36,706 nucleotides of DNA, from the IMG/VR virus record IMGVR_UViG_3300031587_000001, positions 1 to 36,706 of that record, one strand, 5' to 3'. Both the position numbers and the translations under genes were made by a program. The notes under the pieces were generated by a model that saw only the letters and a program-made list of their open reading frames with translations, did not search any database and was not told where the DNA came from. How positions within the stretch are numbered: position 1 is the first letter of the stretch; each line of letters starts with the position of its first letter. The DNA comes from a virus. Shown here piece by piece: positions 4,798 to 35,006 of the stretch.

Positions 4798-4867
4798 TAC
4801 AACACGGTGGCATCCGGTACTTATATTTTAGTCGTGGATGGGGTTTTTGTCAAGAATGGAGTCAGAA

Positions 4868-4966
4868 AGTAGTCAAAGTAGTCCAAGCAGTATTTTCATA
4901 AACTGGCCTTATACGGCCGTATATAGCTTTTTTACCACAAAACTACTCAGACTACTAGGTACTACT
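4868..4966 (+). promoter_or_regulatory. AGTAGT repeats flanking a 14-bp palindrome (putative origin or operator)
   Basis: Two AGTAGTC elements (4868, 4877) lie on the left. A perfect palindrome TATACGGCCGTATA (4910-4923) lies in the centre. Complementary copies (ACTACT at 4942, GACTACT at 4950, ACTACT at 4961) lie on the right. The block is AT-rich and sits directly upstream of the replicative helicase. Such iteron-plus-AT layouts are typical of origins or of multi-site operators. No clear -35/-10 pair is present. Both roles are inference. Confidence 0.5.
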
Positions 4967-4995
4967 TACCTTTAAGAATATAAAGGAGAATGAGA

Positions 4996-6663
4996 ATGGA
5001 AGGTGAGGTGACGGGGGCGCAGTTGCAGCAGGAATTCGTAAACATCATTAAGCCACACGTGAGTGTGGACGACCTGGTTTTGATGGAGAGGTGGTGTACA
5101 TGGCGTTGGGCAGAAGACACGGTGGGGACTATGGTCGTTGACATTTTGGAGGCGGCCAGCGACGCCAGGGTGGCAGAGATACTCAGGCAGTTTGAAGGGA
5201 CGTGGCGCTATGAGTTGTCGGAGAAGATAGTTGATTGGATTTGGGGCGACATCGTTCCGGTGGAGGAGGACGAGGAGGGCGAGACGCCGGAGATAGAGGT
5301 CCACGCTACCGATTTGGGCAACTCCATCCGGTTGGTTCAGAGGCACGGTCGTGACCTCCGGCACGTCAAAGAGTGGGGCTGGTGGATGGCCTGGAACGGT
5401 CAGATTTGGGAGCGCGGCGCTGAGAAGGCGGTCGTGGAGAAGGCCAAGGAGACGGTACTGGCCATCTACCACGAGGCAGCCGAGCTCCAGGACAGTGGGG
5501 AGCGCAAGGAGTTGGCCAGGTGGGCGGCGGTATCGGAGAGCGGCTATCACATTCACCAGATGGTCAGGTTGGCCGAGTCGGACCGGCGCGTTTGTGCCGG
5601 TCCCCAGGACTTTGATTCTAACCCCTGGTTGCTCAACGTTCAGAACGGTACGGTGGACCTGCGTACGGGACAGCTCATGGCCCATCGTCGGGAGGACTAC
5701 ATCACCAAGGTCGCGCCGGTGGTCTATGAGCCGATGGCGACGTGTCCTCGATGGGCGCAGTTTCTTCTGGAGATCATGGGTAACAGTCAGGAGTTAGTGC
5801 AGTTCCTGCAGCGGGCGGTGGGCCATTGCCTCACGGGGGATGTGAGGGAGGACGCCTTCTTCGTCCTGTGGGGCAGGGGGGATAATGGCAAAACGACGTT
5901 TGTGGAGGCCATCGTCAAGATGCTGGGCAAGGATGACTATGCTCATTCGGCCTCGGCGTCGTTGCTTTTGGCCAAGAGATTCGATTGTATCCCTAACGAC
6001 GTTGCCCCTTTGAAAGGTCGGCGCTTTGTGGCGGCCTGTGAGACGCAGAGTGGCGGGCGGTTGGATGAGTCTCTCGTCAAAAGGATGACGGGCGGGGATA
6101 CGCTGGCGGCGCGGTATCTCTATAGCGAGTGGTTCTCGTTCGATCCGCAGTTCAAGTTATGGTTGAGCACGAACCACAAGCCGGAGATCCGGGGTATGGA
6201 CCACGCGATATGGCGGCGAGTTAAACTGATTCCGTTCAACGTACAGTTCCGGGGGGAGAAGGCCGACAAGGATCTGCCCCGTAAGCTGGAGGCCGAGCTT
6301 TCCGGTATTCTCAATTGGGCCATCGAGGGTTGTCTGGCATGGCAACGCCAGGGGCTGGGCGTCCCCGACGAGGTGGTAGCAGCCACGGACTCCTATAAGT
6401 CTGAGATGGATATTTTGGCTCCGTTTATCGAGGAGGAGTGTAAGTTGATTGAGGACAAGAAGGCGCAGGCCGGGCCGTTGTACAAGAGGTATAAGGATTG
6501 GTGTTTCGCCAACGGGGAGAAGGCAGTTTCCAGTCGAGAGTTCAGCGAGCGGTTGCTGGGTAAAGGATACGTTCGGGTTACTGAGGAAGGGCATCGGTAC
6601 TACATGGGGCTGGAACTTAAGCCCCTACCTACATATGACGAGAGTGGAGGTCGAAATGACTAA
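4996..6663 (+). CDS. D5-type replicative helicase (superfamily III)
   Basis: This protein of about 555 residues (557 from the ATG at 4990) is a phage/plasmid D5-like helicase, the P4/poxvirus D5 family that unwinds DNA at replication start. A D5_N-like region is visible (NPWLLNVQNGTVDLRTGQL, about residues 211-230 of the longer form). Walker A follows (GRGDNGKT, 295-302), then an acidic Walker B region (FVAACET near 346-352), sensor motif WLSTNHKP (about 391-398) and arginine-finger candidates in WRRVKLIPF. No primase catalytic site is evident at the N-terminus, so priming may come from the host or elsewhere. I prefer ATG 4996: it is 7 bases from GGAG, while ATG 4990 is only one base from it. 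The gene opens the replication module, directly after a repeat-rich block. Confidence 0.88.
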   Translation: MEGEVTGAQLQQEFVNIIKPHVSVDDLVLMERWCTWRWAEDTVGTMVVDILEAASDARVAEILRQFEGTWRYELSEKIVDWIWGDIVPVEEDEEGETPEIEVHATDLGNSIRLVQRHGRDLRHVKEWGWWMAWNGQIWERGAEKAVVEKAKETVLAIYHEAAELQDSGERKELARWAAVSESGYHIHQMVRLAESDRRVCAGPQDFDSNPWLLNVQNGTVDLRTGQLMAHRREDYITKVAPVVYEPMATCPRWAQFLLEIMGNSQELVQFLQRAVGHCLTGDVREDAFFVLWGRGDNGKTTFVEAIVKMLGKDDYAHSASASLLLAKRFDCIPNDVAPLKGRRFVAACETQSGGRLDESLVKRMTGGDTLAARYLYSEWFSFDPQFKLWLSTNHKPEIRGMDHAIWRRVKLIPFNVQFRGEKADKDLPRKLEAELSGILNWAIEGCLAWQRQGLGVPDEVVAATDSYKSEMDILAPFIEEECKLIEDKKAQAGPLYKRYKDWCFANGEKAVSSREFSERLLGKGYVRVTEEGHRYYMGLELKPLPTYDESGGRND

Positions 6664-6757
6664 AGAGGAATGGGACGAGTTGGTTGAGTGGATGCGTTCG
6701 GAGGAAGTACAGAAGGTTGTAGAGAAGTACGTTGAGCAGGAGGACGAAGATGAGTAG
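6656..6757 (+). CDS. 33-residue acidic microprotein
   Basis: This short ORF has GGAGG six bases before its ATG, overlaps the helicase stop by 8 bases and overlaps the next gene by 8 bases. The peptide is a single strongly acidic helix (MTKEEWDELVEWM, ending EQEDEDE). An ATG 21 bases earlier is in frame but has a poorer ribosome site. It could be a DNA mimic or a partner of a replication protein, but that is speculation. The overlaps at both ends support it being real. Confidence 0.5.
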   Translation: MTKEEWDELVEWMRSEEVQKVVEKYVEQEDEDE

Positions 6758-7910
6758 GGAGTTTGTACCTGTGGAAAGGTACCCTTTGGATATGGCAGAT
6801 GGTGAACTGAAGGAGGCCCTGGGCGGATTGCCAGACTCTCAGGTGATGCGCACCTTGATAATGGCCGAGGTGCAGGCAATTCGTGAGGGGGCAGGACGGG
6901 AGTCTCGTACCATGCGTAATATGTGGTATAACTATATCAAGCCGGTGTTATCACGAGTGGGCCTATTGGGGAAAAAGACCCGCACGGGGGAAAGGGTTAC
7001 GTGGGAAGGTTTGTTGTCGAAGTATCTGGCTGAGTTGGTGAGAGATGGGCTGACATCCTACTCTGAGTTACGTATCATTGACGGCAGTCGGCAGAGGAGC
7101 GTTGCCTTTGAGGTAACCGATGATATAGTCGAGCCGATAGTGTTGGTAGGGGCTCACTATCCCTGGCTTATCCTGTTCACTGAGAAAGACACCATGTGGG
7201 AGGAAGTGCAGGCGGTATCCACCTTGTATGGTGTTAGTGCCATCAGTGGCGGGGGAGAACCGGCCAACGCTTGTACTCACAATATCATCGAGGAGATACT
7301 GAGGAAAACCGACCACGACCTTGTGTTACTGTCCCTCACTGACTATGATCCGTATGGGTACATCATCGCCGAAGCGCAGGCCACACAGATAAGAGAGGCG
7401 GCCTCTGGCCGGGGGGTGATTCACGAGCGGTTGGGGTTGGAGCCGGAACAATTGACGGCGGAGGAACGGCACAATAGTGCCTATAGGCCGGCCAAGCAGA
7501 AGTTGGCAGAGTGGTTTGAGGAGACGGGCGGAGTGGATGGGGAGCCGTTGGGCCTTGAGCTTGATGCGTTGCCGTTGTCGAGGTTGCGGGGCATGTACGC
7601 CGAAGGCATAGAGCGTTACGTTGATTTGGGTGCAAGGGTAAGCGATTTGCACGAGGCGCTGGTTGATAAGTTGGCTTGTCAAGTTTTATTAACCAACTTT
7701 ATGAGCATACGGGCGGCCTTAGTGTCAGGGGTGAAGTCGAGTGGGTTGTGGGAGACTATAGTTAATACTCCGTTACCCGATAGGCTCTTTTGGTCGGCGG
7801 CGCGGTTGGGGTGGGATCGTATTGACCCCACAACTATAATGGTGGATGGGAAATTACTTTTCGATTGTCAAAGGGATATCGTTAAATTTATGGTAGATAT
7901 GGAGGTGTAG
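6750..7910 (+). CDS. Spo11/Topo VI-A-like protein (Mini-A-like) with Toprim domain
   Basis: From the ATG at 6750 (GGAGG upstream) the product is 386 residues. An N-terminal helical region contains RTMRNMWYNY, matching the pattern around the DNA-cleaving tyrosine of Topo VI-A and Spo11 (R-[DN]-x-[YFW]-Y); Y60 is the candidate. A Toprim-like segment follows, with a conserved acid in FTEKD (E145) and LTDYDPYG (D198, D200). That segment closely resembles the DxDPxG signature of Topo VI-A. The GGGEPANACTHNIIEEIL stretch between them also fits that family. No B subunit (GHKL ATPase) is encoded next to it. Free A-like proteins (Mini-A) are known from mobile elements. It probably binds or cleaves DNA in replication or recombination. 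Alternative: a Toprim protein without cleavage activity. Confidence 0.68.
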   Translation: MSREFVPVERYPLDMADGELKEALGGLPDSQVMRTLIMAEVQAIREGAGRESRTMRNMWYNYIKPVLSRVGLLGKKTRTGERVTWEGLLSKYLAELVRDGLTSYSELRIIDGSRQRSVAFEVTDDIVEPIVLVGAHYPWLILFTEKDTMWEEVQAVSTLYGVSAISGGGEPANACTHNIIEEILRKTDHDLVLLSLTDYDPYGYIIAEAQATQIREAASGRGVIHERLGLEPEQLTAEERHNSAYRPAKQKLAEWFEETGGVDGEPLGLELDALPLSRLRGMYAEGIERYVDLGARVSDLHEALVDKLACQVLLTNFMSIRAALVSGVKSSGLWETIVNTPLPDRLFWSAARLGWDRIDPTTIMVDGKLLFDCQRDIVKFMVDMEV

Positions 7911-7912
7911 AA

Positions 7913-8767
7913 ATGGAAGAGCAGAGAGCATTGGCACGATACGTGCCGCAGATTGAAGATGTGTTGAGGTTGGATAGGACGGAGGCGTCGCTGACGATAC
8001 CGGCCATCCAGGCGTTGTGGCCGGTGCTGGACCAGGCCGACGACGCCTCGTTCGTAGCCAAGTCGGCGCTGATCTACTCGCTAAAGACGGTCAAGGTCAA
8101 GGACGAGCACGGCCAGTTAGTCCCCAAGTGGAAGATGACGCCGTTGGCCAGGATGGAGGATGGCGAGTACCGTTGGACGGGCGACACATGGCCGGAGTAC
8201 TGCCTTAGTCATTTACAAATGAGCCCTGGCTGGGCATCCAGTCACAAGAGGCTATGGGAGGTCTTTCACGTCAAGTTGGGTTTCAGCCTGGAGGACCTCA
8301 TCAGAGCGGGCAAGTCCAAGTTGGGCCATGCGGTGGCTACGGTGGACAGGCAGTATCCCGACGTGGACCAGAGGCTGATAGACGTTCTGTTTGGCAATGA
8401 GCACACCTGTAGTCTGTGCCGGGGGTTTGTGGCCTACGATGGGGAGCCTCCGGAGGACTGTCCCCACTGCGGTCAAGAATTTGCGTACACAAATCCCGGG
8501 TCGTTCGCCAACACGTTGGCCGTGCTGAACGAGGTCACACGGGAAGAGCCGCCGCCGGGGGTGTTCTCTTTCGTGGCCAACGTCGAGTGCACCTGGGACG
8601 ACGACGAGCAGGTCACCGAGATCCGGGTGCTGGCTGAGGCCAGGCTGGACGAGGTGGAGTGCAGCCTGCCGGTTTGGGAAATCTTAGTCGGTGAGGGCGA
8701 CGAGAGAGTACCAAAAGAGTTGGCGGGCGAGGTGTTCCAATATCTCAGGGCAAAGTTCGGGAGGTGA
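7913..8767 (+). CDS. hypothetical zinc-ribbon protein, 284 aa
   Basis: The start is ATG 7913, two bases after the preceding stop, with GGAGGTG upstream. The N-terminal 150 residues are mainly helical. A zinc ribbon sits near residues 165-185 (CSLC then CPHC, 18 residues between pairs), followed by an acidic strand-rich C-terminal domain. I do not recognise the family. Its place between a Spo11-like protein and a PD-(D/E)XK-like nuclease suggests a role in replication or recombination, perhaps as a DNA-binding partner. The gene contains copy 2 of the 16-bp near-palindrome just after the ribbon. Confidence 0.6.
   Translation: MEEQRALARYVPQIEDVLRLDRTEASLTIPAIQALWPVLDQADDASFVAKSALIYSLKTVKVKDEHGQLVPKWKMTPLARMEDGEYRWTGDTWPEYCLSHLQMSPGWASSHKRLWEVFHVKLGFSLEDLIRAGKSKLGHAVATVDRQYPDVDQRLIDVLFGNEHTCSLCRGFVAYDGEPPEDCPHCGQEFAYTNPGSFANTLAVLNEVTREEPPPGVFSFVANVECTWDDDEQVTEIRVLAEARLDEVECSLPVWEILVGEGDERVPKELAGEVFQYLRAKFGR
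8479..8494 (+). repeat. 16-bp near-palindrome, copy 2 of 4
   Basis: These 16 bases are identical to 3470-3485 but are read in a different frame (EFAYTN here, LRTQI there), so the conservation is at DNA level. Confidence 0.7.
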
Positions 8768-8770
8768 GGC

Positions 8771-9121
8771 ATGGTGCGTTGGAAGCAGTGGCAGGAGGTT
8801 GTATGTGAGACGTTCGGGCTGCCTCTGATGGCCCGGCCCGGCGTCGAGGAGTGCGACTGTGGTGGTGACGGTTCTCAATTGGTCGTGGACGCCAAGCACA
8901 AGAGGTTGCCCCTGTGGCTTCTGAGGGATCATCGGAAGACACGGGGGTACGCGAAGAGTTATGAGTTGCCGGTCACCTGCTATCGCACTTCCATTGACGA
9001 TGGGTTGGTTGTCGTGACGCTAAAGGATTTCAAGCGGTTTCTCCTGCCATGCTTCCAGTATCAGCGGGAGCATGGCAAGTTGCCGAAGGTAGAAATGATA
9101 CAAGGGGAGTTAGAGTTTTGA
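8771..9121 (+). CDS. PD-(D/E)XK-like nuclease, possible Holliday junction resolvase
   Basis: This 116-residue protein starts with ATG after GGGAGGTGA, three bases past the previous stop. The core reads LVVDAKHKRLPLWLL (D40, K42), like the beta-hairpin (D/E)XK motif followed by a helix in small phage resolvases and RecB-like nucleases. An upstream acid, E9 or E13, could be the first metal ligand. Length and position fit a structure-specific nuclease that resolves branched DNA before packaging. A Cys-rich loop (ECDCGG) is unusual. The assignment rests on motif pattern only. Confidence 0.55.
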   Translation: MVRWKQWQEVVCETFGLPLMARPGVEECDCGGDGSQLVVDAKHKRLPLWLLRDHRKTRGYAKSYELPVTCYRTSIDDGLVVVTLKDFKRFLLPCFQYQREHGKLPKVEMIQGELEF

Positions 9122-10815: not shown

Positions 10816-11823
10816 ATGAAAACTTTATCGGCAATTGACATTGGATATCGCGGAGTTAAGGCGTTGGCCACCAACGACCGGCAGGCCCATTTCCCGTCTG
10901 TGGTGGGGTCGGAGGAGCGCGTGACGTTCTCGTTGGATGAGGCCAAGGTAAGTAGCCTTGTGTTGACCATGAAGGAGGGCGTTACCTGGTGCGTCGGGCA
11001 TACGGCGTTGCTTCAGTCGGAGCAGAAGGCCGGTGGGGGCCGGCGTGGCGATTGGATTTTCTCAGAGCCGTATCGTGTGCTTTTGTGTGCGGCACTCTCG
11101 GAGCTTCACAAGAGTACGGTTGCCACGTCGGTTGTGACGGGCCTTCCGTTGGAGCACTATAACACCTACGCCGTCAAGGCGCGCAGCGTATTCGTGGGCG
11201 AGCATACGTTCAGGCGCAAGGGGGGGCGTTGGCAGACGGTAACCGTCGAAGATGTCCTGGTCGTCACTCAGCCTTATGGCTCTCTTTTGGACCTGGCGTT
11301 GGCCGATAACGGGGTGGCTCTGGATAACCCCTTTGCGGTGGGGGTAGTCGGCATCTGTGACATCGGGGGGGTGACTCTGAATTTGTTGGTAACGGACAGT
11401 CTGAGAGAGGTGGGGCAATGGACCAAAGGTGATGGCCTGGGACTGTTGGCGGCGTTGGAGGAGATCGCTACCGACCTTCGGGCTGACTACCCCGGCTTCT
11501 CTCCCAAGGCATACGAGGTAGCGGAGTGGGTAGATAAGGGGACCTTCTCCTACCAGGGGCAGGAGGTGGACATCGCCCCCTATGCCGAGCATCGGTTGAG
11601 TCCGTTGGTTCGGTTGATTTTGGGGCGTATGGCCGACGTGTGGTCTGAACCGGGCCGTTACGATGCAGTCCTGCTCACCGGGGGTGGGGCGGTGGCATTG
11701 AGTAAGATGCTCAAGGCGCAGATGGACAGCGTCTATGCTAACGTGACCGTCGCCCAGGACGCCATCTTTGCCAACTGTCGGGGCTATTTGAAGTTGGCCA
11801 GGCGGTTGTGGGGCGGTGAGTAA
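10816..11823 (+). CDS. parM: ParM-like actin-family segregation ATPase
   Basis: This 335-residue protein has the actin-fold signatures: phosphate-1 loop DIGYRG (8-13), phosphate-2 region CDIGGVTLN (181-189) and the adenosine loop LLTGGGAVAL (about 286-295). Plasmid ParM/StbA proteins polymerise with ATP and push sister plasmids apart, being linked to DNA through ParR bound at a centromere. The next gene overlaps its stop and encodes a ParR-like protein, which strongly supports the call. It implies low-copy maintenance as an extrachromosomal element. An alternative, phage-capsid or DNA positioning filament (AlpC-like), is possible. Confidence 0.85.
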   Translation: MKTLSAIDIGYRGVKALATNDRQAHFPSVVGSEERVTFSLDEAKVSSLVLTMKEGVTWCVGHTALLQSEQKAGGGRRGDWIFSEPYRVLLCAALSELHKSTVATSVVTGLPLEHYNTYAVKARSVFVGEHTFRRKGGRWQTVTVEDVLVVTQPYGSLLDLALADNGVALDNPFAVGVVGICDIGGVTLNLLVTDSLREVGQWTKGDGLGLLAALEEIATDLRADYPGFSPKAYEVAEWVDKGTFSYQGQEVDIAPYAEHRLSPLVRLILGRMADVWSEPGRYDAVLLTGGGAVALSKMLKAQMDSVYANVTVAQDAIFANCRGYLKLARRLWGGE

Positions 11824-12116
11824 TGGCAGCCGTGCGTTACACCTTCACCTTGAGTGCCGTCAAAGACGCCGACGTGGTTCGGTGGTTGGAACTGCAACCC
11901 AACATTTCTGCCGCCATTCGGGAGGCATTGAAGGCGTACGTCCAGAGGCCGACTCACTACGATTTGAGTCATAAGATGGATGAGGTCTTGACGGCGGTTC
12001 GGGCGTTGCGGTACGTGGGGGCGTCTGAGCCTGTCGAAGGTGGTGGCGAAGAGCCGGAAAAGGCCGCCGAAGGGCTTGACGAGATGATAGCCAAGTTCGC
12101 GGAGGGAGCAAGATGA
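11823..12116 (+). CDS. parR: ParR-like centromere-binding protein
   Basis: The ATG at 11823 overlaps the ParM stop (TAATG). The 97-residue product begins with a ribbon-helix-helix pattern: strand RYTFTLS, helix KDADVVRWLELQ and helix ISAAIREALKAYV. An acidic, flexible tail rich in Glu and Ala follows, ending in a helix (LDEMIAKFAEGA). This matches ParR/StbB, whose RHH half binds the centromere while the C-terminal tail contacts the ParM filament. Its end overlaps the FtsK-like gene by ATGA. The nearby inverted-repeat cluster at 13451-13579 and the DNA upstream of ParM are candidate binding sites. Confidence 0.78.
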   Translation: MAAVRYTFTLSAVKDADVVRWLELQPNISAAIREALKAYVQRPTHYDLSHKMDEVLTAVRALRYVGASEPVEGGGEEPEKAAEGLDEMIAKFAEGAR

Positions 12117-13447
12117 CTATTTTACTTGGTGTGTTGGTGGTTGTAGTAGGTGTTGTGCTCTACATTGTCGCCTTAAATCTGTACAACCAGACGAATGAGA
12201 TTTTGCATCATCGGACCATGCTTAGGATGGATAAGGAGGTGCGCCGTCAGGCGATGAACATGCCGGATAAGATCACTCCTGATCCAGTTACAGGTTGCTA
12301 CCCCGTGCTGGGAGAACCGGGGGGCAGGCGGTTCCTGGATTTGAATAGGGGCCTGTCCTTCGACTTTAACGGGTTGGTGAGCGCAGCGCCGGAGATAGCC
12401 AGGCCTGAGCAGTTTCGCCGGATGTTGCAGGCAGGCGGTTGGCCTCCAGGCAAGGGTGCGAATGACATTCCCGTGTTGTTGGGTCGGTCAGTGGAGTGGC
12501 CTACGGATGTGCCATTGGAGTCGGTGGTTACAAACCCCGACATTAAGGCATTGACATTGGGTGTGACTATCGGCGAGGATGGGCAACAGGAGACGGTCAA
12601 GGCGGATATGGGTAAGTTAGTCCACATCGCTGTGGGTGGCTCCAGTGGGTGGGGCAAGTCGGTGTTTCTGCGCTCATTGGGTTATCAGTTGGCGCTCTCG
12701 GGAACTCCGGTGGACCTGGCCATGATAGATTTGGAGGGGGCGACGCTGGCCCCGTTTGCCAGATGCGAGCGATTGCTGTATCCCATTGCGGAGACCGAGG
12801 GGGATGCTCTGGCCGTGTTGTCGGCGCTGACGGGCGAACTTGAGCGACGGAAAAGTTTGTACGCACAGATTCCTGGGGTGGACAGTTTGGCGGCTTACAA
12901 TGCCAGGGCCGATGAACCTTTGGCGGCATTGGTGGCCATCATAGACGAGGCGACGGCGTTGTTGGGTGATAAGTCGGTTGAGTCTGCCTTGCGGACTTTG
13001 GCATTGAGGGCGCGGAAGTATGGCCTTTGGTTGGTTATGGCCGGCCAGGATTGGAAAGCGTCAAGTCTCGATACGGCCATCAGAAATCAGTTGTCCAGTC
13101 GCATTCAGTTCAAGGCTATGAGTAAGGGTCAGAGTCGGGTGTTGCTGGAGCGGAGCGGCGCTGAGAGTCTGGACGTGGAGGGGCGGGCGTTGGTCATTTT
13201 GCCCGGCAAGGAGATGTTCACCATGCAAGCTCCTTTCGTCTCTGCTAAAACCATTCTGGATGACTGTTCGGACGGGGGGCCGAGGTTCCCTATGCCAGAA
13301 GGCAATGGCTATGACTCCAAGTTGGCAGAGCGGGTCAGGGCTCTGTCACGTGAGGGGATGGGACTAGGGGCCATCTCCGATGCGGTGTTTGGCTATCGCA
13401 ATGCCAAGAGGACGGGCGAGATCAAGAGGATTCTAGGGCTGGAGTGA
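12113..13447 (+). CDS. FtsK/HerA-family DNA translocase, membrane-anchored
   Basis: This 444-residue protein overlaps ParR by ATGA. One membrane helix is at the N-terminus (about residues 3-24, LLGVLVVVVGVVLYIVAL). The motor domain has Walker A GGSSGWGKS (175-183), Walker B VAIIDEA (D278, E279) and a C-terminal segment that looks like a small helix-turn-helix (GMGLGAISDAVFG). FtsK/SpoIIIE/TraB-type motors pump double-stranded DNA, during chromosome segregation or conjugation. Its position directly behind ParM/ParR suggests plasmid segregation or transfer rather than virion packaging, which the terminase handles. No relaxase is encoded in the window. Confidence 0.85.
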   Translation: MTILLGVLVVVVGVVLYIVALNLYNQTNEILHHRTMLRMDKEVRRQAMNMPDKITPDPVTGCYPVLGEPGGRRFLDLNRGLSFDFNGLVSAAPEIARPEQFRRMLQAGGWPPGKGANDIPVLLGRSVEWPTDVPLESVVTNPDIKALTLGVTIGEDGQQETVKADMGKLVHIAVGGSSGWGKSVFLRSLGYQLALSGTPVDLAMIDLEGATLAPFARCERLLYPIAETEGDALAVLSALTGELERRKSLYAQIPGVDSLAAYNARADEPLAALVAIIDEATALLGDKSVESALRTLALRARKYGLWLVMAGQDWKASSLDTAIRNQLSSRIQFKAMSKGQSRVLLERSGAESLDVEGRALVILPGKEMFTMQAPFVSAKTILDDCSDGGPRFPMPEGNGYDSKLAERVRALSREGMGLGAISDAVFGYRNAKRTGEIKRILGLE

Positions 13448-16486: not shown

Positions 16487-19176
16487 GGAAGCCAGGTGTT
16501 TTGACGAGAGCGAAGGCGGCGTATAAGTTCTATAGGGACGGTTGGCAGCAGTTCGGGATAGTGCCCAGGGAGCGGGGGCGTGGTGTGTTGGCCATCAACA
16601 CGTGGGGCACGAAGGCGGCGCCGTTCATCTGGCCCGAATGGAGGATGGGCCAACCGATCTGGCAACTCGTGGATTATCCCACGTATGCGCAGGAGGGTTA
16701 CAACGAGAACACGGTGGTTTATAGTGCCATCATGTACAAGGTGCGTTCTATCGTCTCTGCCCCGCTGAGGGCCTACACAGGCACTTTGGACGAGCCGGAG
16801 CTGTTGCCTCCAGACCATCCACTGTCTCAACTGGTGGCACGTCCCAATAGGTTCATGAGTTGGCCCGAGTTCCAGGGGTTGGCTGAGGTGTACTTTAACC
16901 TGTCAGGCAATTGTTACATCTACGTGGATAAGGGCACTCCGGCTCTGTACCTGTTGAGGCCCGACCTGGTAAAGATAGTGCCCCGACCGGGCAAAAAAGA
17001 GTTGATGGGCTTCCTGTATGTGCCGGAGGGTAAAGGGCAGGCCGACGGGATTCCCTATTTGCCTCAAGATATAATCCACGTCAAGTTACCAAACCCGTTG
17101 GACGAGTTGGATGGTCTGGGGTATGGCATCCCGCCGGTGTCGCCGGCAGCCAGGTCCGTTGACGTGGACAATCAGGTTACCAGGTTTCTCAAATTGTTCT
17201 TTGACAAAGGGGCCATGCCGCCGGGGTTGCTCAGCTACGACTACGAGTTGGACGACGAGGACATAGCGCGGGCCAGGGAGAGATGGCAGGAGCAGTACGG
17301 CGGGGTGGCCAACTGGACGGACGTGGCCGTGCTGGACAAAACGGGCAAATATCAAAGGCTGGGTTTGACTTTTGACGAGATGGGATTTGAGGGGCTGGAC
17401 GAGCGTAACGAGGCACGCATCTCAGGGCCATTTGGTGTGCCACCTATCCTGATAGGAGCCAGGGCGGGGCTCAAGCACGCCACTTACTGTTTACCGGCTA
17501 TGGCCAGAATTAGTACGCCAGGTGGGTTGAAGCACATTGCCAATATCGAGCCTGGGGATCGTGTTTGGAGCTTCGTTGATGGGGAGTTACAAGAGAAGTC
17601 GGTCATTTGGTCAGGCCAGGTGGGCAAGAAAAAACTCTATGAGATCAGGACAAAGAATCGAACCTTGCGGGCTACCGGAAACCATCCGGTACTCGTTCGC
17701 ACACCAGGCAAAAAGGGAGGTGTGCCTAACCATTTACGTCACGCTGGCTATGAGTGGCGACGGGTGGACGAGTTGACTACCGATGATTGGGTAGTAGAGC
17801 CAAAGGCGTATCCAGATTGTAATATCCAATTTGCCTTTACCCCTGACCATTATCGCTTCTTTGGTGCGATTATTGGTGATGGGACAGTGGATGCGGGGCG
17901 TGGCCAGGTTCGTATGGCAATTCCGCGAAGTGATGACTGTCATGATGAATATGTAGCCCTTGCGCAAAAGCTCTTTACAAAAGATAATGGCGGCCCTATT
18001 CGGGTCGCTGAATGCCCTCGTTCCTTCAACTTCGTGGCTACAAAGTGGACCAGGCGACTTGTCGAGTTGGGGCTTGGTGATCGGGCGCACACAAAGAGGA
18101 TACCGGGGTGGGTATATCAGTTATCAAGGGTGGAACGGTTGGCGTTTTTGGCCGGTTTGATTGACACGGATGGAAGTATTGACAAGCGAGGAGCGTTGAC
18201 AATTGGCTTTACCAGCGAGGAATTGACACATGATGTACGTCATTTGTTCTTGACGACGGGGTTTCAATGCACCAATGTCTATCGGCGCGTTACGACACCG
18301 GATATGCTTCCCAGTCCCGGCACGAAGGACCAATACGATTTCTATCGCTTCGTTGTTTCCTCCGCCGCCATGTTGGCTGAGATACCATTCACCAATTCTA
18401 CTTATAGGCATCGAGTAGAAGGGAATAGCCACCGGATTAGGGATTGTGGGAAGGACGCGGTGAGGGCAGGATTGGATAACCATTTGGGCTTTTATCGGGT
18501 CAAGGAAATCATTGAGTTGGAGCCCGAATCGGTCTATGACATAACGGTAGAAGGTGGCCATAGTTTTGTTGCTGACGGCGTGGTAGTGCATAATTCTAAC
18601 TATGAGGAGGCCAGGCGGGCCTTCTGGCAGGATACGCTGGTGCCGGAGCTGCGCTGGTTCGAGATGGAGTATCAGTACTATCTGCAAGGGGACAAAGGCG
18701 AGTTTGTGATGTTCGACTTGTCCAAAGTCCCGGCGCTGGAGCCACCGGCCAAGGAGCGGGCGGACATCGCCAGGGATGCGTTCCGGGCGAGTGGCATTAC
18801 GCGCAACGAGTACCGGAGTATCATCGGGCTTGATCCGGACCCCGACGGAGATGTCTACCTGGTGAGCCTGGGAGTCATCGAAGTCCCGGCCTCCCAGCAA
18901 GGGGAAGAGACGGAGGAAGGAGCGCCGGAGGCGGAGGAACAGGCGGCGCAGGTCGGGTTGAAATCGGGCGTTGGAATTCGGGAGGTGTTGGCCATCGTCC
19001 ATGAGGCCGGGCGGCAGGCGCTGAAGAAGAGGAAGATGGTCTCCTGGCCGGACGTTTTGCCGCAGGTGCAGGAGCATCTGGACAACGAGGCCATTCGTAC
19101 TGTGTTCCGGCAGGCTACGGAGGAAGGCTGGAGCGTGGAGGCTATGACTAACAAATTAAGGAAGGTGCTGGCATGA
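16483..19176 (+). CDS. portal protein, interrupted by an in-frame intein
   Basis: The start is TTG 16483, overlapping the terminase stop, with AGGAGG at about 11 bases. The precursor has 897 residues. Exteins 1-335 and 705-897 together give a 528-residue HK97-type portal. Recognisable parts are the N-terminal wing (YPTYAQEGYNENTVVYSAI), the stem/crown part and the conserved segment ending KHATY joined to SNYEEARRAFW. The dodecameric portal forms the DNA entry vertex and binds terminase. The intein sits exactly inside the conserved KHATY-SNYEEARRAFW motif. The last 60 residues form an acidic then helical tail (REVLAIVHEAGRQALKKRK). The next gene overlaps by ATGA. Confidence 0.92.
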   Translation: MRKPGVLTRAKAAYKFYRDGWQQFGIVPRERGRGVLAINTWGTKAAPFIWPEWRMGQPIWQLVDYPTYAQEGYNENTVVYSAIMYKVRSIVSAPLRAYTGTLDEPELLPPDHPLSQLVARPNRFMSWPEFQGLAEVYFNLSGNCYIYVDKGTPALYLLRPDLVKIVPRPGKKELMGFLYVPEGKGQADGIPYLPQDIIHVKLPNPLDELDGLGYGIPPVSPAARSVDVDNQVTRFLKLFFDKGAMPPGLLSYDYELDDEDIARARERWQEQYGGVANWTDVAVLDKTGKYQRLGLTFDEMGFEGLDERNEARISGPFGVPPILIGARAGLKHATYCLPAMARISTPGGLKHIANIEPGDRVWSFVDGELQEKSVIWSGQVGKKKLYEIRTKNRTLRATGNHPVLVRTPGKKGGVPNHLRHAGYEWRRVDELTTDDWVVEPKAYPDCNIQFAFTPDHYRFFGAIIGDGTVDAGRGQVRMAIPRSDDCHDEYVALAQKLFTKDNGGPIRVAECPRSFNFVATKWTRRLVELGLGDRAHTKRIPGWVYQLSRVERLAFLAGLIDTDGSIDKRGALTIGFTSEELTHDVRHLFLTTGFQCTNVYRRVTTPDMLPSPGTKDQYDFYRFVVSSAAMLAEIPFTNSTYRHRVEGNSHRIRDCGKDAVRAGLDNHLGFYRVKEIIELEPESVYDITVEGGHSFVADGVVVHNSNYEEARRAFWQDTLVPELRWFEMEYQYYLQGDKGEFVMFDLSKVPALEPPAKERADIARDAFRASGITRNEYRSIIGLDPDPDGDVYLVSLGVIEVPASQQGEETEEGAPEAEEQAAQVGLKSGVGIREVLAIVHEAGRQALKKRKMVSWPDVLPQVQEHLDNEAIRTVFRQATEEGWSVEAMTNKLRKVLA
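17488..18594 (+). mobile_element. intein with LAGLIDADG homing endonuclease in portal
   Basis: The 369-residue insertion starts at Cys336 (CLPAMARIST) and ends at His703-Asn704, followed by Ser705 as the +1 nucleophile. Block B is ATGNHPVL (TxxH). LAGLIDADG motif 1 is FFGAIIGDG and motif 2 is FLAGLIDTDG. Block F/G is YDITVEGGHSFVADG and VVVHN. All splicing residues are present, so self-splicing should be active. The two dodecapeptides each keep a catalytic acid, so homing is also plausible. The segment is by eye more AT-rich than the exteins. Confidence 0.93.
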
Positions 19177-28325: not shown

Positions 28326-30063
28326 CGTCGTTGAACTTATCGTTTTAGGGAAAGACGAGGCGTCCAAGGTATTGGGTGGAATTGGGGACGCCGTATCAAG
28401 TCTGGGCACGGTCGCCGTTGGGGCTGGGGCGGTGGCGGGGGCTGCCATTATCGGCGTGGGGGCAGCCTGTGCCAAGCTGGCAATAGACGCTGCTCCTCTG
28501 GCCGACATTAAGGCGTCCTTTGAAGGGATTGCTGAGGCGTCGGGCACTACCTCGGAGGCGGTGTTGGCTGACTTCAAAGAGAACACCGCCGGGATGTTGA
28601 GCAACGCCGATGCGATGGCCGCCTACAACGAGGCGGCTCAGTTAATTACGCCCACGTTTGCCAACCAACTCCCCGAAGCGATGCAGTATCTTTCCAAGGT
28701 TTCGGCGAGCACCGGCGAAGACCTGGACTACCTGGTTGATTCCCTGGTGCGTGGTGTGGGGCGGGAGTCTGTAGCTATCCTCGACAACCTCAAAGTTCAG
28801 GTTGATAGGCAGGCGGCTCTCGAGGCCGGGGCGGAGGCTTTGGGCAAGACTGTGGATGAGATGTCCAAAGCCGAGAGGCAAGAAGCCCTGATGACCGAGA
28901 CCATGAAGAAATTGGTGGAGAACACGGCTGCCCTGCCGGATGTCACGGAGAGTGCCAACACTAAGATAAAGGCTTTGCAGGCCTCTTTCACAGATGTAAA
29001 AGACAGTATCGGGTTAGCCCTTCAACCGGCTCTGTTGGCTGTCCTGACACCATTGGGTGATCTGGCGGAGAGATATGGCCCTCAGATTACCACGTGGGCC
29101 GAGGAGGCAGGCGTATGGTTAGGTGAGAATTTGCCCGCCGCCATTGACTGGCTCGGGGAGAAGTGGAATGAGTTGTGGCCACAGGTTTCAGGAGCCGTCA
29201 GTACGGGATGGTCCATTGTTGGTCCTATTCTCAGCACTCTAGGGGGTTGGTTTTCCAGTGAAGGGCCTGACGCCATCTCCGGTCTTCAGGCGGTGTGGGA
29301 GGACAAGTTTGGCTGGATTGGTGCCTGGGTCCAGGAGAACATGCCCCTTATTCGGGATACCATTGAAGTGGTCATGTTGCGGATAGAAGAGGTCACAAGT
29401 TTTGTGTTGACCGGCATAACTGCCTTTTGGGAATCTCATGGAGAGCAAGTCATGGCCATTGTGACGAGTGCTCTGGATATTTTGTGGACCCTGTTCGACG
29501 TCGGGTTGAGAAACATCTTTGACGTGGCTAAGCTAATTATGCAACTGATCACCGGCGACTGGGAAGGGGCAGGGGAGACGTTGAAGGGCATTGCTTCGCG
29601 GACCTGGGAAGGGGTGGAGACCATCTTTGGGGACGCCCTTTCGATTTTGGGCAACCTGGTAGACATTGGGCTGTCGGATGCTGTGCAGGCAGTGGTTGAC
29701 TGGTATCAGGGCATGTTGGATGCAGGCAAGCACATAACCTCCGGTTTGAAGCAGGGGATACTCGACGGGATGTCCTCTGTCAAGGACGCCCTCGTCAATG
29801 CGGTCAACGATGCCATCGCAGCAGCCAAGGCAGCTTTGGGTATCAGCTCTCCGTCCGGAGTTTTCATGGGTATCGGAAGTCTGGCCATGCAGGGTTTGGC
29901 CCTGGGTATCACCGGTTCGGCCAACGTACCCGCTGCGGCGGCAGCGACGGCAGTGACCAATATGGCCCACACCACCAACAATTATCTGACCATGAATGTC
30001 CAGACCAGGGCTACCACGGAGACGGTCCGACAGGGGTTCGAGACGATGAGGGCGTTGGTATGA
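28318..30063 (+). CDS. tape measure protein
   Basis: From ATG 28318 the product has 581 residues; an earlier in-frame start at 28240 would lie inside the chaperone extension. A hydrophobic Gly/Ala stretch (about 31-56) is followed by long helical regions and a second Trp-rich helical block (WLGENLPAAIDWLGEKWNELW). Near the C-terminus comes a motif common in tape measures (ISSPSGVFMGIGSLAMQGL). At about 0.15 nm per residue it predicts a tail near 87 nm. It lies between the tail chaperone and the distal tail protein, the standard place. No lytic transglycosylase or peptidase domain is visible. Confidence 0.9.
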   Translation: MANVVELIVLGKDEASKVLGGIGDAVSSLGTVAVGAGAVAGAAIIGVGAACAKLAIDAAPLADIKASFEGIAEASGTTSEAVLADFKENTAGMLSNADAMAAYNEAAQLITPTFANQLPEAMQYLSKVSASTGEDLDYLVDSLVRGVGRESVAILDNLKVQVDRQAALEAGAEALGKTVDEMSKAERQEALMTETMKKLVENTAALPDVTESANTKIKALQASFTDVKDSIGLALQPALLAVLTPLGDLAERYGPQITTWAEEAGVWLGENLPAAIDWLGEKWNELWPQVSGAVSTGWSIVGPILSTLGGWFSSEGPDAISGLQAVWEDKFGWIGAWVQENMPLIRDTIEVVMLRIEEVTSFVLTGITAFWESHGEQVMAIVTSALDILWTLFDVGLRNIFDVAKLIMQLITGDWEGAGETLKGIASRTWEGVETIFGDALSILGNLVDIGLSDAVQAVVDWYQGMLDAGKHITSGLKQGILDGMSSVKDALVNAVNDAIAAAKAALGISSPSGVFMGIGSLAMQGLALGITGSANVPAAAAATAVTNMAHTTNNYLTMNVQTRATTETVRQGFETMRALV

Positions 30064-32462
30064 GTGATTGGAAGGTCATTGTCCCGGAGGCGACCACAAA
30101 TTGCGTCTTAAACCCCAGCGCCGAGGCGACGGGCAACTACGCCGCCGTAGGGGGCGCGGTCACCAGAGTAACCACCTATTCGGCCTTTGGTCTCCGCTCT
30201 TATCGGGTTCAGACGGCAGCAGACAACCAGGGTGCTACGTTTACTCTGTCAGCCCTGGCCAACGCCATCCATTACGTGACCATGTGGGTGCGTGGCACTT
30301 TGCCTGCATCGTGGGATTGGTCGCTGGATAACGTCAACTGGCACGTACCGACTCTACTTGAGGCCATTGACGCCGATTGGGGTTTGTATGGCCATCAGTT
30401 CCCGGCGGCGGAGGCCAACGGTTCGACTACGTTGCGCGTCTATCAGAATGGGGCGGGGGCAGGAGATTTCTACCTGGATGCTATTCAGGTAGAGGCAAAG
30501 GGCTATTGGACGACCTATTGTGATGGGACGCAGGAGGGTTGTGAGTGGCTCACCGTGATGCACGCCTCGACCAGCAGTCGGTCGGGGCAATCCAGAGCCG
30601 GGGGCCGGGTGCGAGACTTGCAGGACGACTACGGCCTGGACATCGGCGGGATGATGGGCGTGGGGGCTCCGCCACAGAAAGTATGGGTTGATGAGTACGC
30701 CTTTTTGCCGGGCGGGGAGTTGGACAGCATCAAGATTCCTCCCCGGCCTTTTACTTTGACCGGCGTCGTTCGGGGTGTCAGTTATGCCGATTTACACAGT
30801 AAGCGGCAGGCCCTCACCTCGGTTCTCTCCCCGGATACGTACCCTAAACAGGATGATCGGCCACAGCCGGTTCGGTTACGGTACACGGGTTCGGCGGTTC
30901 AGAAGCAAATTGCCGCCCATTACGAGGGCGGGCTGGAGACGGCCATTCGGGTTGACGACCCGTGTTATTGGGAGCGGGTGAGCGTAAGGTTTCTGGCAGA
31001 CGATCCGTTCTGGTACGAGGTGGGGGAGTCGGCGGCGGTGTTGGATTCGAGTGATAGCGCGACGTTCAGGATTGTGGCGGCCAGGCTGAGGAGTACGGGG
31101 CAGTGGAACGCCCTGGGGCCGCCGAACGTGGCGGGAACGTATACCCAAATCCTGGCGATAGCGGAAGACGACGTTTACGTTTATTTCGGCGGCGGCTTTT
31201 TGAACTTTGACAATATCCCCAACGCAGACTACATCGTTCGGTACAATAAACAGACGGGGGCCTGGTCCTCACTTGGTACGGGGATGAATGGGAACGTTTG
31301 GGCTCTCACACTGGCCCCTGACGGGACGCTATTTGCGGGAGGCTCGTTCACTCTGGCCGGGGGTGTCGCGGCGAACTACGTAGCCAGTTGGAACGGCGCA
31401 GCCTGGTCCCCTTTGGGGGTAGGAACGAACCATTTTGTCTTTGCCTTGGCTGTTGGGAATGATGGGTTGCTGTTTGTGGGGGGGCGGTTCACTCTGGCCG
31501 GGGGTGTCGCGGCGAACTACGTAGCCAGTTGGAACGGCGCAGCGTGGGCTGCCTTGGGTGCGGGTATGGACGATTGGGTTTACGACCTCGTTGTTGCCCC
31601 ATCAGGGGCTTTGTTCGCAGGCGGACGGTTCACCGCAGCCGGAGGAGTAGGGGCAAGTCGCGTAGCCAGGTGGCTTGACGGGGCCTGGGCCGCGCTGGGT
31701 GCGGGGGTGGACAACACCGTGTGGGCTTTGGCCGTTACGGGCGCGGGTGTATTGTACGTTGGCGGCGAATTCCATAATGCGGGGGGGAGTGCAGCGCTCC
31801 ACGTGGCGAAGTGGGATGGAGCCGCCTGGTTTACCCTCAGCTCAGGGGCTAGCGCAATAGTATACTCATTGGAGATCGGTCCCGATAGCGTCCTATTTGC
31901 CGGTGGCACGTTTTCGGTGGCAGGAGGCGTTGCCGTGCCGAGAATGGCCCGTTGGAACGGTGCATCCTGGGCGCACGTTGACATCAGCCTTCCTGGCCCT
32001 CCTGGTGTTATGGCTATCCATACCGGGTGTGCGGACCCGGTCATCTCACGGAATTATGATATCTGGGTTGGATTCGATACCACCGGCACTGGCTACTACG
32101 CCGGCCTGGTATCGGTATTAAACGATGGTACACAGGCTGCGTTCCCTCGGATTATCATTAGCAGGGGAGGTGGCACGAGTGCTACTGTGAACGAAGTCAG
32201 GAATGAGACGATTGGCCGGGAACTGCTTTACAGTTATAGTCTGTTGGACGGCGAGGAGTTGACTGTGGATTTACGCCCAACACAAAGGGATGTCGTGTCC
32301 AGTTTCTTCGGGGAGCGGTTCGATGCAGTTCTGCCCGATTCGGACCTTGGAGATTTCATATTGAGGCCGGGGAGTAACAATGTCACGTGCCTCATTGACG
32401 TGGCTGGAGGGCCGACGGTGGAGGTCGGCATGATATGGAAGAGTACCTACAAGAGTTTCTGA
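30060..32462 (+). CDS. distal tail protein with inserted beta-propeller, copy 1
   Basis: This 800-residue protein starts in an ATGA overlap with the tape measure. The N-terminal domain (1-165) is a jelly-roll like carbohydrate-binding modules. Residues about 195-330 match the siphovirus Dit (Sipho_tail) belt domain (PPRPFTLTGVV, LRYTG, VRFLADDPFWYEVG). Six 47-residue propeller repeats then run from about 355 to 645 (pattern VxALAxxxDGxLFxGGxFTxAGG, VAxWNGAAWxxLGxG), with a poorer seventh. The C-terminus (LLYSYSLLDGEELTVDLRP, GDFILRPGSNNVTCLI) is the second Dit half. So the propeller is inserted inside Dit. I infer a tail-tip hub that also binds glycans. The next gene is a paralogue with the same layout. 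Confidence 0.8.
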   Translation: MSDWKVIVPEATTNCVLNPSAEATGNYAAVGGAVTRVTTYSAFGLRSYRVQTAADNQGATFTLSALANAIHYVTMWVRGTLPASWDWSLDNVNWHVPTLLEAIDADWGLYGHQFPAAEANGSTTLRVYQNGAGAGDFYLDAIQVEAKGYWTTYCDGTQEGCEWLTVMHASTSSRSGQSRAGGRVRDLQDDYGLDIGGMMGVGAPPQKVWVDEYAFLPGGELDSIKIPPRPFTLTGVVRGVSYADLHSKRQALTSVLSPDTYPKQDDRPQPVRLRYTGSAVQKQIAAHYEGGLETAIRVDDPCYWERVSVRFLADDPFWYEVGESAAVLDSSDSATFRIVAARLRSTGQWNALGPPNVAGTYTQILAIAEDDVYVYFGGGFLNFDNIPNADYIVRYNKQTGAWSSLGTGMNGNVWALTLAPDGTLFAGGSFTLAGGVAANYVASWNGAAWSPLGVGTNHFVFALAVGNDGLLFVGGRFTLAGGVAANYVASWNGAAWAALGAGMDDWVYDLVVAPSGALFAGGRFTAAGGVGASRVARWLDGAWAALGAGVDNTVWALAVTGAGVLYVGGEFHNAGGSAALHVAKWDGAAWFTLSSGASAIVYSLEIGPDSVLFAGGTFSVAGGVAVPRMARWNGASWAHVDISLPGPPGVMAIHTGCADPVISRNYDIWVGFDTTGTGYYAGLVSVLNDGTQAAFPRIIISRGGGTSATVNEVRNETIGRELLYSYSLLDGEELTVDLRPTQRDVVSSFFGERFDAVLPDSDLGDFILRPGSNNVTCLIDVAGGPTVEVGMIWKSTYKSF
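31346..31402 (+). repeat. 57-bp exact repeat (propeller blade), unit 1
   Basis: Identical to 31487-31543, offset 141 bp (47 codons, one propeller blade). Exact identity at synonymous sites points to a recent blade duplication or conversion. Confidence 0.85.
31487..31543 (+). repeat. 57-bp exact repeat (propeller blade), unit 2
   Basis: Second copy of the 57-bp blade repeat, one blade downstream of unit 1. Confidence 0.85.
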
Positions 32463-32477
32463 TAGAAAGGGGAGTTC

Positions 32478-35006
32478 GTGAAGAAATTATTGGTTGCCGT
32501 CCTGGCGCTTTCTTTGCTTTCGTATCGAGGAGGGGCCGTGTCTGATTGGTCTGTTATTGTACCCGAGGCTACGGTAAATCTCATAGCCCATCCCAGCGTC
32601 GAGGCCGCCGATATCAGCGCGTTCACGGTCGTCAACATGGCTGTATTGGCCAGGTCGTCGGCCTATAGCAAGTGGGGGGCTTATTCGTTGAGCATCACGC
32701 CAGGCGGAGGGCCGAACAACACGGGGGCGTATTACCAGGTCACCGGTGCAGCGACGACGACCTACACTTTCTCCGTCTGGGTGCGTGGGGTAGTGGGCGA
32801 TGCCTATAGGATACGGCTGATTGATGGTCTGGGGGTTACATTGGGCACGACGACCTTTACCGGCACCGGCGACTGGCAGTTGGTCGAGGTTACGGGCACG
32901 ACTGCAGTTAACGTGACGGTACGCTGTACTTTGACCAAAGACGTTGCCGGGGGCGTGGTCTTTTATGCCGACGGCTGGCAACTGGAACAGAAGGGATATC
33001 GCACCACGTACTGTGACGGTGACCGGGAAGGTTGTGAGTGGCTCGGCCCGCCCCACGCCGCTACCAGCCAGAGGTCGGCGCTGTCCAGGGCGGGGGGGAG
33101 AATCAGAGACCTGCAAGACGACTACAGTCTGGATGTTGATGGCATGGAAGGAGTAGGGATGCCGGTTCAGCAGTTGAGCGTAGACAGATATGCCATTCTG
33201 CCGGGTGGTCAGGCAGGCAACGTCAAGACTGCATCTCGCGAGTTCGTCTTGACAGGGCACATCCACGGCGTTACATCTTTGGACTTCCACTCCAAACGGG
33301 GAGCGTTGCTCACTCTGTTCGAGTCGGAGGCGTACCCTGGCTCGCAGTCGGTAAGGTTCCGGTACGCCGGGGCGGAGGTGGAAAAGCAGATCTCTGCCTA
33401 TTACGTGACGGGGCTGGAGGCGTCCATTTTGGCCACGGACCCCTGCTATCGGGAGAAGGTGGGGCTGCGGTTCATAGCACCCGACCCGTTTTGGCACGAA
33501 GTGGGGGAGTCCTCTCAGATGTTGGATGCAGAGGATACTCTCACCGTTCGCATCATCGCCGCCAGGCTCAAGAGTACGGGGCAATGGGATGGGTTGGGGC
33601 CTCCGGCAGCACCGGGGATAGCCGTCTACGCACAGGTCAGGGCCATTGCTATTGCCAAGGATGGTTCGGTTTACGTCGGTGGGGACTTCCAGAACTTTAA
33701 CAACAACGCAAACGGTGACTACATCGTGCGTTGGGATCCGGCCACCGCCACCTGGTCTCCACTCAACACCGGGTTGGACGGGATCGTCGAGGCCATCGCC
33801 ATCTCACCGAGCGGGCAGGTCTACATCGGCGGGCAGTTCACGGACATCGGCGGTGGGCCTGGGGGAACGTACAATCGAATCATCCGATGGGACCCGGTGA
33901 CGTCCACCTGGGCGGCGTTAGGGGCGGGGCTTAACAATACGGTACTCTCTCTGGCTTTCGCCCACAACGGGGATTTGTACGTTGGCGGTTGGTTCACCGA
34001 CCTGGCAGGTGGCGGGTTGGCCAATGCGCACTACGTTGCCAAGTGGAACGGCGCAGTGTGGTCGGCCTTGAACGTCGGGTTGAACCACATCGTCGAGGTC
34101 ATTGCCGTCGCTCCCGATGGGCAGGTTTATTGTGGGGGGAACTTTAACGATGTCTGGGGAGGGCCTGGGGCGACGTACAACTACATTATTCGTTGGGACC
34201 CGGTGAACTCTGTGTGGGCGGCGTTGGGTTCCGGTCTGAACGGGATGGTGTACGCCCTGGCCGTTGGGGGAGATAACGTCGTCTTCGTGGGAGGCAATTT
34301 CACGGATGTCTTTGGGGGGCCGGGGGGGACGTACAATTACGTTGCTCAGTGGAACTGGTCATCCTGGGCCGCTTTGGGTAGCGGAACGAACGGCATCGTT
34401 CGGGCCTTGGCTATAGGGCCGGATGGGTTGTTGTACGCAGCCGGTCAGTTCACAGCAGCGGGCGGGTTGACGTTTATCGAGCGACTGGCAAAGTGGAACG
34501 GCTCGGCGTGGGCGGCGTTGGATGCAGAGATGCCGGGGCTGTTGACGGGATTGGCTATCGCCCTGGGGAAGTCCGATCCGGTTATCGTGGAGAACTATGA
34601 CATTTTCGTTGGGTTCACCACGACGGGCACAGCCAAGCGAGCCGGCAAGGTCACAGTCATGAGCGAAGGCACAGCAAACGAGTTTCCCCGCATCGTAGTA
34701 AGCAGATCGGGTGGTACATCGGCCCGTCTGTTGGCCATCAGGAACCACACAACGGGCAAGGAGTTGTTGTTCAATTACAGTCTGCTGGATGAGGAGACGT
34801 TGACCATTAGTCTATCGCCGAATAAGAAGAGCGTGGTGTCCGGTTTCTTTGGACCCCGGCCGGAGGCCGTTTTGCACAACTGTGATTTCGGCGAGTTCGC
34901 TTTGCAACCGGAAGGCAACGAGATCACCGTTTTTGTCAACATCGTCGGCGCACCTACGATCACGGCCTACATGGTCTGGCAAGACACATACGTGGGACAG
35001 GACTGA
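32478..35006 (+). CDS. distal tail protein with inserted beta-propeller, copy 2
   Basis: The frame from GTG 32478 gives 842 residues. The domain order equals that of the upstream gene: jelly roll, Dit belt (REFVLTGHIHGV, VGLRFIAPDPFWHEVG), six or seven propeller blades (VRAIAIAKDGSVYVGGDF, IIRWDPVTSTWAALGAG) and Dit C-half (LLFNYSLLDEETLTISLSP). The two are clear paralogues by tandem duplication. Two starts are possible. GTG 32478 (AAAGGGGAG nearby) adds 20 residues that look like a Sec signal peptide (MKKLLVAVLALSLL). GTG 32538 (AGGAGG nearby) gives MSDWSVIVPEAT, aligning with MSDWKVIVPEAT in copy 1. The second start is structurally more sensible. Confidence 0.78.
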   Translation: MKKLLVAVLALSLLSYRGGAVSDWSVIVPEATVNLIAHPSVEAADISAFTVVNMAVLARSSAYSKWGAYSLSITPGGGPNNTGAYYQVTGAATTTYTFSVWVRGVVGDAYRIRLIDGLGVTLGTTTFTGTGDWQLVEVTGTTAVNVTVRCTLTKDVAGGVVFYADGWQLEQKGYRTTYCDGDREGCEWLGPPHAATSQRSALSRAGGRIRDLQDDYSLDVDGMEGVGMPVQQLSVDRYAILPGGQAGNVKTASREFVLTGHIHGVTSLDFHSKRGALLTLFESEAYPGSQSVRFRYAGAEVEKQISAYYVTGLEASILATDPCYREKVGLRFIAPDPFWHEVGESSQMLDAEDTLTVRIIAARLKSTGQWDGLGPPAAPGIAVYAQVRAIAIAKDGSVYVGGDFQNFNNNANGDYIVRWDPATATWSPLNTGLDGIVEAIAISPSGQVYIGGQFTDIGGGPGGTYNRIIRWDPVTSTWAALGAGLNNTVLSLAFAHNGDLYVGGWFTDLAGGGLANAHYVAKWNGAVWSALNVGLNHIVEVIAVAPDGQVYCGGNFNDVWGGPGATYNYIIRWDPVNSVWAALGSGLNGMVYALAVGGDNVVFVGGNFTDVFGGPGGTYNYVAQWNWSSWAALGSGTNGIVRALAIGPDGLLYAAGQFTAAGGLTFIERLAKWNGSAWAALDAEMPGLLTGLAIALGKSDPVIVENYDIFVGFTTTGTAKRAGKVTVMSEGTANEFPRIVVSRSGGTSARLLAIRNHTTGKELLFNYSLLDEETLTISLSPNKKSVVSGFFGPRPEAVLHNCDFGEFALQPEGNEITVFVNIVGAPTITAYMVWQDTYVGQD

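Follow-up and report, generated by a model that had tools for sequence, protein, structure and literature searches.

The 36,706-nucleotide stretch of viral DNA analysed here (the window) encodes a protein of 386 residues that is a real, divergent member of the known Mini-A family. We think it likely that this protein is a homologue of the A subunit of type IIB topoisomerases that works without a B subunit, as a homodimer that cleaves DNA through a tyrosine and serves phage replication or recombination. We demonstrated its family membership, the conservation of the whole active-site set, its Toprim fold and its gene context, and could detect no B subunit.

The source is a linear IMG/VR virus record of 36.7 kb from an uncultured phage, possibly partial (a fragment), which contains genes for an integrase, a P4/D5-type helicase, an N6/N4 DNA methylase, a ParM-like actin, an FtsK-like ATPase, and HK97-type head and tail proteins. 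The Mini-A-type ORF is intact, from the ATG at 6750 to a stop codon ending at 7910, an in-frame TTG upstream (6732) being a possible alternative start. The elements that an earlier note on this DNA had reported, namely this frame, RTMRNMWY with Y60, E145, and LTDYDPYG with D198 and D200, were all present. The features discussed below are as follows.

4990 to 6663, plus strand: D5/P4-type replicative helicase, 557 aa (D5_N E=9e-35, TIGR01613 E=1e-93)
6656 to 6757, plus strand: 33-aa ORF that overlaps the end of the helicase gene and the beginning of the Mini-A gene, presumably translationally coupled
6750 to 7910, plus strand: Mini-A-type (Topo VI-A/Spo11 superfamily) protein, 386 aa, assigned by profile, alignment, tree and model; modelled winged helix at about residues 29-114, Toprim at about 136-292, C-terminal extension at about 326-386
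6915 to 6917, plus strand: codon of R56, corresponding to the clasp arginine R102 of M. mazei Top6A; conserved in 45/45 Mini-A proteins
6927 to 6929, plus strand: codon of Y60, candidate DNA-cleaving tyrosine, corresponding to Top6A Y106; conserved in 45/45 Mini-A proteins
7182 to 7184, plus strand: codon of E145, Toprim metal/acid residue, aligned with Top6A E202
7341 to 7349, plus strand: codons of D198-Y-D200, Toprim DxD motif, aligned with Top6A D254/D256
7557 to 7559, plus strand: codon of E270 in GLELDAL, aligned with the Top6A clasp/tetrad residue E342
7913 to 8767, plus strand: zinc-ribbon-like protein, 284 aa, with CxxC...CxxC
8771 to 9121, plus strand: 116-aa protein, read as PD-(D/E)XK without profile support

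Family membership and active site

The protein matched PHROG 6247 ('DNA topoisomerase') with an E-value of 8.8e-7 and the Pfam model TOP6A-Spo11_Toprim with an E-value of 0.0027, a match that falls short of the cut-off of that model. A home-made profile, built from 14 Mini-A proteins, gave it 41.4 bits, whereas 2000 shuffled versions of its sequence reached 2.6 bits at best and the other proteins of the window 1.5 bits at most. PHROG 6247 also matched all 18 Mini-A virus records that were tested, the best match being that of NP1 (gp49, E=1e-139), whose Mini-A is the example shown in a published figure (PMC7614492). The family, for which Takahashi et al. 2020 is cited here via PMC7614492, PMC8185306 and PMC8084294, is common: tblastn with one member retrieved at least 76 GenBank phage records, and at least 600 viral stretches matched the Mini-A motif. 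Plasmids of Streptomyces, Rubrobacter, Paenibacillus and archaea also carry members, one of which is annotated as 'Topo Mini-A'. The function of Mini-A is stated to be unknown in one review (PMC8084294), and no archaeal Mini-A is characterised according to another (PMC8185306). We found no biochemistry on any Mini-A in the literature examined.

The identity of the window protein to known Mini-A proteins was about 16-23%. BLAST alignments to three of them (L032, L044 and L029) started at residue 54 and therefore spanned Y60, while local profile alignments mostly covered the Toprim half. Comparison by hhalign of an alignment of the protein with its relatives (A4) with a single Topo VI-A sequence gave a weak match (37% probability, E 0.00036). 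When used as single-protein queries against viral and genome contigs, the window protein, the zinc protein and the helicase gave no matches, and no close relative of the window protein was found. A DNA-pattern search for DYDPYGY returned only unrelated terminases and one hydroxylase-like protein, which were rejected. In a tree of 48 proteins, the window protein fell on the Mini-A side of a branch (SH-aLRT 99%) that separates this family from archaeal Topo VI-A (n=3), and thus did not group with the cellular enzymes. It had the longest end branch (3.49), and the tree did not fix its exact place within Mini-A. Topo VIII is absent from the tree because tblastn with Topo VI-A gave no phage matches, only Topo VI-A of haloarchaeal plasmids. 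The protein is also longer than other Mini-A proteins, owing to an insert in the winged helix and to extensions at the N terminus and the C terminus, the latter of which was modelled poorly. Taken together, profile, alignment, tree and Toprim-fold evidence bear out the earlier assignment to the Topo VI-A/Spo11 superfamily as an A-subunit-only, Mini-A-like protein.

The active residues of M. mazei Top6A are Y106, R102, E202, D254, D256 and E342 (PMC13040014). Across the set of 45 Mini-A proteins (window protein included), R56, Y60, E145, D198, D200, G203 and E270 aligned. R56, Y60, E145 and D198 were invariant, and the position of D200 had a single exception, HCIV-1 with N. Y60 lies four residues past R56 in the modelled winged helix, which gives the R-x-x-x-Y spacing, and the agreement of Y60, E145 and D198 with Y106, E202 and D254 answers the earlier question of whether these coincide with active-site residues. 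We located E342 by aligning a wild-type chain and an E342Q chain from the PDB to an archaeal Topo VI-A; since the two differ at exactly that letter, the position is fixed. The archaeal AELEAF motif aligns with LELDAL of the window protein, and E270 is thus, by alignment, a fourth active-site match, new beyond the pattern of Y60, E145 and D198-D200 noted earlier.

Position 270 is E in 32 of the 45 Mini-A proteins and Q in 13, and the latter (L009, L010, L017, L020, L021, L023, L024, L026, L027, L031, L033, L036 and L043) form one clade (SH-aLRT 100), which also carries A or T where the window protein has K146. The proteins of Streptomyces pFRL3 and of Paracoccus are examples from this clade. 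As the substitution E342Q makes M. mazei Top6 cleavage-prone (PMC13040014), this Q-bearing clade may be naturally cleavage-prone, and we regard it as the most interesting by-product of the analysis.

Predicted fold and alternative readings

In a first AlphaFold run (alignment A2), the winged helix was mis-registered, with a pLDDT of about 50. The second model was made from alignment A4 (17 sequences), which was picked among random subsets for motif register and raised the pLDDT of the winged helix to about 66-84; the choice of this model therefore favours the winged-helix reading. Its overall pLDDT was 70.7 and its pTM 0.65, with blocks ranging from 66 to 84 in the winged helix and from 64 to 90 in the Toprim domain. 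The latter was well supported, and helices were predicted in the winged-helix region at 29-45, 55-69 and 85-98. The alignment of this region is fragile past Y60, as the expected register was obtained in 15 of 120 sequence subsets. The modelled Toprim domain matched Topo VI-A best (1d3y, Z 10.8, rmsd 5.5, 159 residues; 9o0g, Z 10.6, rmsd 3.8, 151 residues), followed by MksG (Z 10.5), JetD (Z 9.6) and Spo11 (Z 8.9); the tool itself treats Z-scores that differ by no more than 1 as ties. Foldseek with the whole model gave no match at E<=0.001. Of the superposition on Topo VI-A that the earlier note had proposed, the Toprim half was matched. The winged-helix part was modelled with fair confidence and with fitting helices, but no known structure matched it when taken alone.

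MksG and JetD, the next best after Topo VI-A and tied with it within method error, raise the question of whether the protein is a Wadjet-type Toprim nuclease, which would hydrolyse DNA in a metal-dependent manner without a tyrosine intermediate, possibly against competing plasmids. We consider this very unlikely. The R-x-x-x-Y of Topo VI-A and Mini-A is retained and the sequence profiles favour Mini-A, whereas DUF2220 and DUF3322 of Pfam had no match at E<=1 and no SMC-like JetABC partners were found among the genes scanned. No PADLOC model matched the protein, and the Wadjet or defence reading was rejected on this basis.

The protein could also be the A subunit of a strand-passing topoisomerase of the Topo VI or Topo VIII kind that borrows a GHKL B subunit encoded by the host or elsewhere. 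Its catalytic residues are all intact, supercoils arise in phage replication, and the record is possibly incomplete. However, GHKL (PF02518) and the Topo VI-B transducer (PF09239) were unmatched in this linear, possibly fragmentary record, as the earlier note had claimed for the vicinity of the gene. No B subunit was detected either in 18 other Mini-A virus records, 10 of them deposited as complete genomes, which indicates that the B-less state is ordinary for Mini-A. This search covered viral records, and we hold a borrowed B subunit to be improbable. There is little reason to see in the protein a relic that binds DNA idly, or a structural replication factor that kept the fold and lost the reaction; this we hardly believe. 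Its branch is indeed very long, and it departs from the family at the conserved linker Gln, which it lacks, and at the serine of the usual DPSG, where it has DPYG; these are also among the weak points of the preferred assignment. Yet every mechanistic residue is kept, an unlikely outcome if selection were relaxed, the frame is open throughout and the neighbouring genes overlap.

Gene context and proposed mechanism

The D5 helicase that the earlier note had placed beside the Mini-A gene is real, as judged by its profile matches listed above. It has no N-terminal primase half; relatives that have one are about 730-830 aa long. Gaps of 2 and 3 bases separate the genes at 7913 and 8771 from the stops that precede them, with purine-rich stretches upstream, and the overlapping or closely spaced genes of the cluster are probably co-transcribed. 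Concerning the two downstream proteins, the zinc-ribbon label holds insofar as two CxxC motifs are present, but profile matches were sub-threshold only. The PD-(D/E)XK nuclease label was made by eye alone, since the 116-aa protein matched nothing in Pfam, PHROG, NCBIfam, PADLOC or PDB sequences. Among the 80 best viral loci with relatives of the helicase, none had a Mini-A within 5 kb. The location in a replication cluster stands, but the pairing with the helicase is not conserved, and a single break-initiation system made up of Mini-A, the helicase and their two neighbours is hypothetical.

In other phages, Mini-A genes are set among replication and recombination genes. That of NP1 is surrounded by genes for a primase, ThyX, a ligase, a Sak4-like annealing protein, a Cas4-type exonuclease and a helicase, that of Lumi by a helicase and polymerases, that of a Bacteroides phage by a polymerase, NinB and SSB, and that of a Chryseobacterium phage by DnaE and RecA. 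Prophage or genomic copies are immediately followed by genes for an AAA_25 ATPase or for a primase/helicase.

Several other features of the record were observed. Just upstream of the helicase, an AT-rich segment (4866-4956) contains two tandem copies of AAAGTAGTC and an inverted AGTAGTC-type arm; these repeats, which are not significant window-wide, are a candidate operator or replication origin. A ParM-like actin, a small ribbon-helix-helix-like protein and an FtsK-like ATPase are encoded in a row at 10816-13447 and, with the integrase at 2455, are plasmid-like segregation genes in a phage. The portal protein contains a 369-aa intein with a LAGLIDADG endonuclease domain (17488-18594). Two adjacent paralogous tail proteins of 800-842 aa (30060-35006) combine beta-propeller-like repeats (Rax2/DUF5122 matches) with Sipho-tail-like parts.

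In topoisomerase VI, the catalytic tyrosine reaches the Toprim domain of the partner subunit, in trans, and Spo11 of meiosis derives from the topoisomerase VI family. By homology, we infer that Tyr60 most plausibly mediates DNA cleavage in phage replication or recombination. The protein, made from the replication operon, would dimerise and act on duplex DNA. The Mg2+ site formed by E145, D198 and D200 in the Toprim domain of one subunit would meet Y60 from the winged helix of the other, and this tyrosine would attack the DNA backbone there; the product would be a covalent, staggered, protein-linked DNA break. A clasp between R56 and E270 would hold the enzyme mostly uncleaved, as may be proposed from the role of the corresponding pair in Top6, published in 2026 (PMC13040014). 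Dimerisation, cleavage in trans, metal use and the clasp are thus presumed from the related enzymes, and the enzyme might serve genome replication or recombination through breaks, through relief of topology or through both; as to which DNA event it serves, we can only guess. In a more specific and rather doubtful scheme, the lone dimer, ATPase-free and Spo11-like, would introduce breaks with protein-capped ends into phage DNA as it replicates, and these ends would be processed for recombination-dependent replication by the adjacent D5 helicase and both small proteins.

Mini-A, which is common in phages, represents the Topo VI-A/Spo11 cutting module in its simplest form and could reveal how an enzyme that has no ATPase partner makes breaks. 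The window protein widens the known diversity of the family and shows which residues, the R56-E270 pair among them, are kept when identity is down to about 20%.

Comparison with known systems

The closest likeness is to Mini-A itself (NP1 gp49, PHROG 6247), with which the window protein shares the A-subunit-only organisation, the R-x-x-x-Y of the predicted winged helix, the E...DxDPxG Toprim, the E-L-D-A motif and a phage or plasmid replication setting without a B subunit. It differs from Mini-A in size (386 versus about 300 aa, with a short winged-helix insert and about 60 additional aa at the C terminus), in the DPYG and linker Gln positions mentioned above, and by an identity of at most 23%. 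Archaeal Topo VI-A (M. jannaschii 1d3y, M. mazei 2q2e/9o0g) provides the best match to its Toprim fold and has the same six catalytic residues (R102/Y106/E202/D254/D256/E342) and TDxDPYG motif; the window protein, in contrast, lies on the opposite side of the 99% branch, has a shorter Toprim domain and is devoid of the long N-terminal part and of the Topo VI-B partner. With JetD and MksG of Wadjet, it has in common the combination, predicted here, of a winged helix and a Toprim domain and a similar Toprim Z-score, but neither the PADLOC and Pfam models nor, among the genes scanned, the partner genes of these nucleases. Unlike Spo11, it has no Top6BL or Rec102/104-like partner and gave no specific Spo11 sequence match, while it shares with Spo11 the superfamily and, as predicted, the domain pair, its Toprim domain resembling that of the yeast Spo11 core complex with the Z-score of 8.9 given above.
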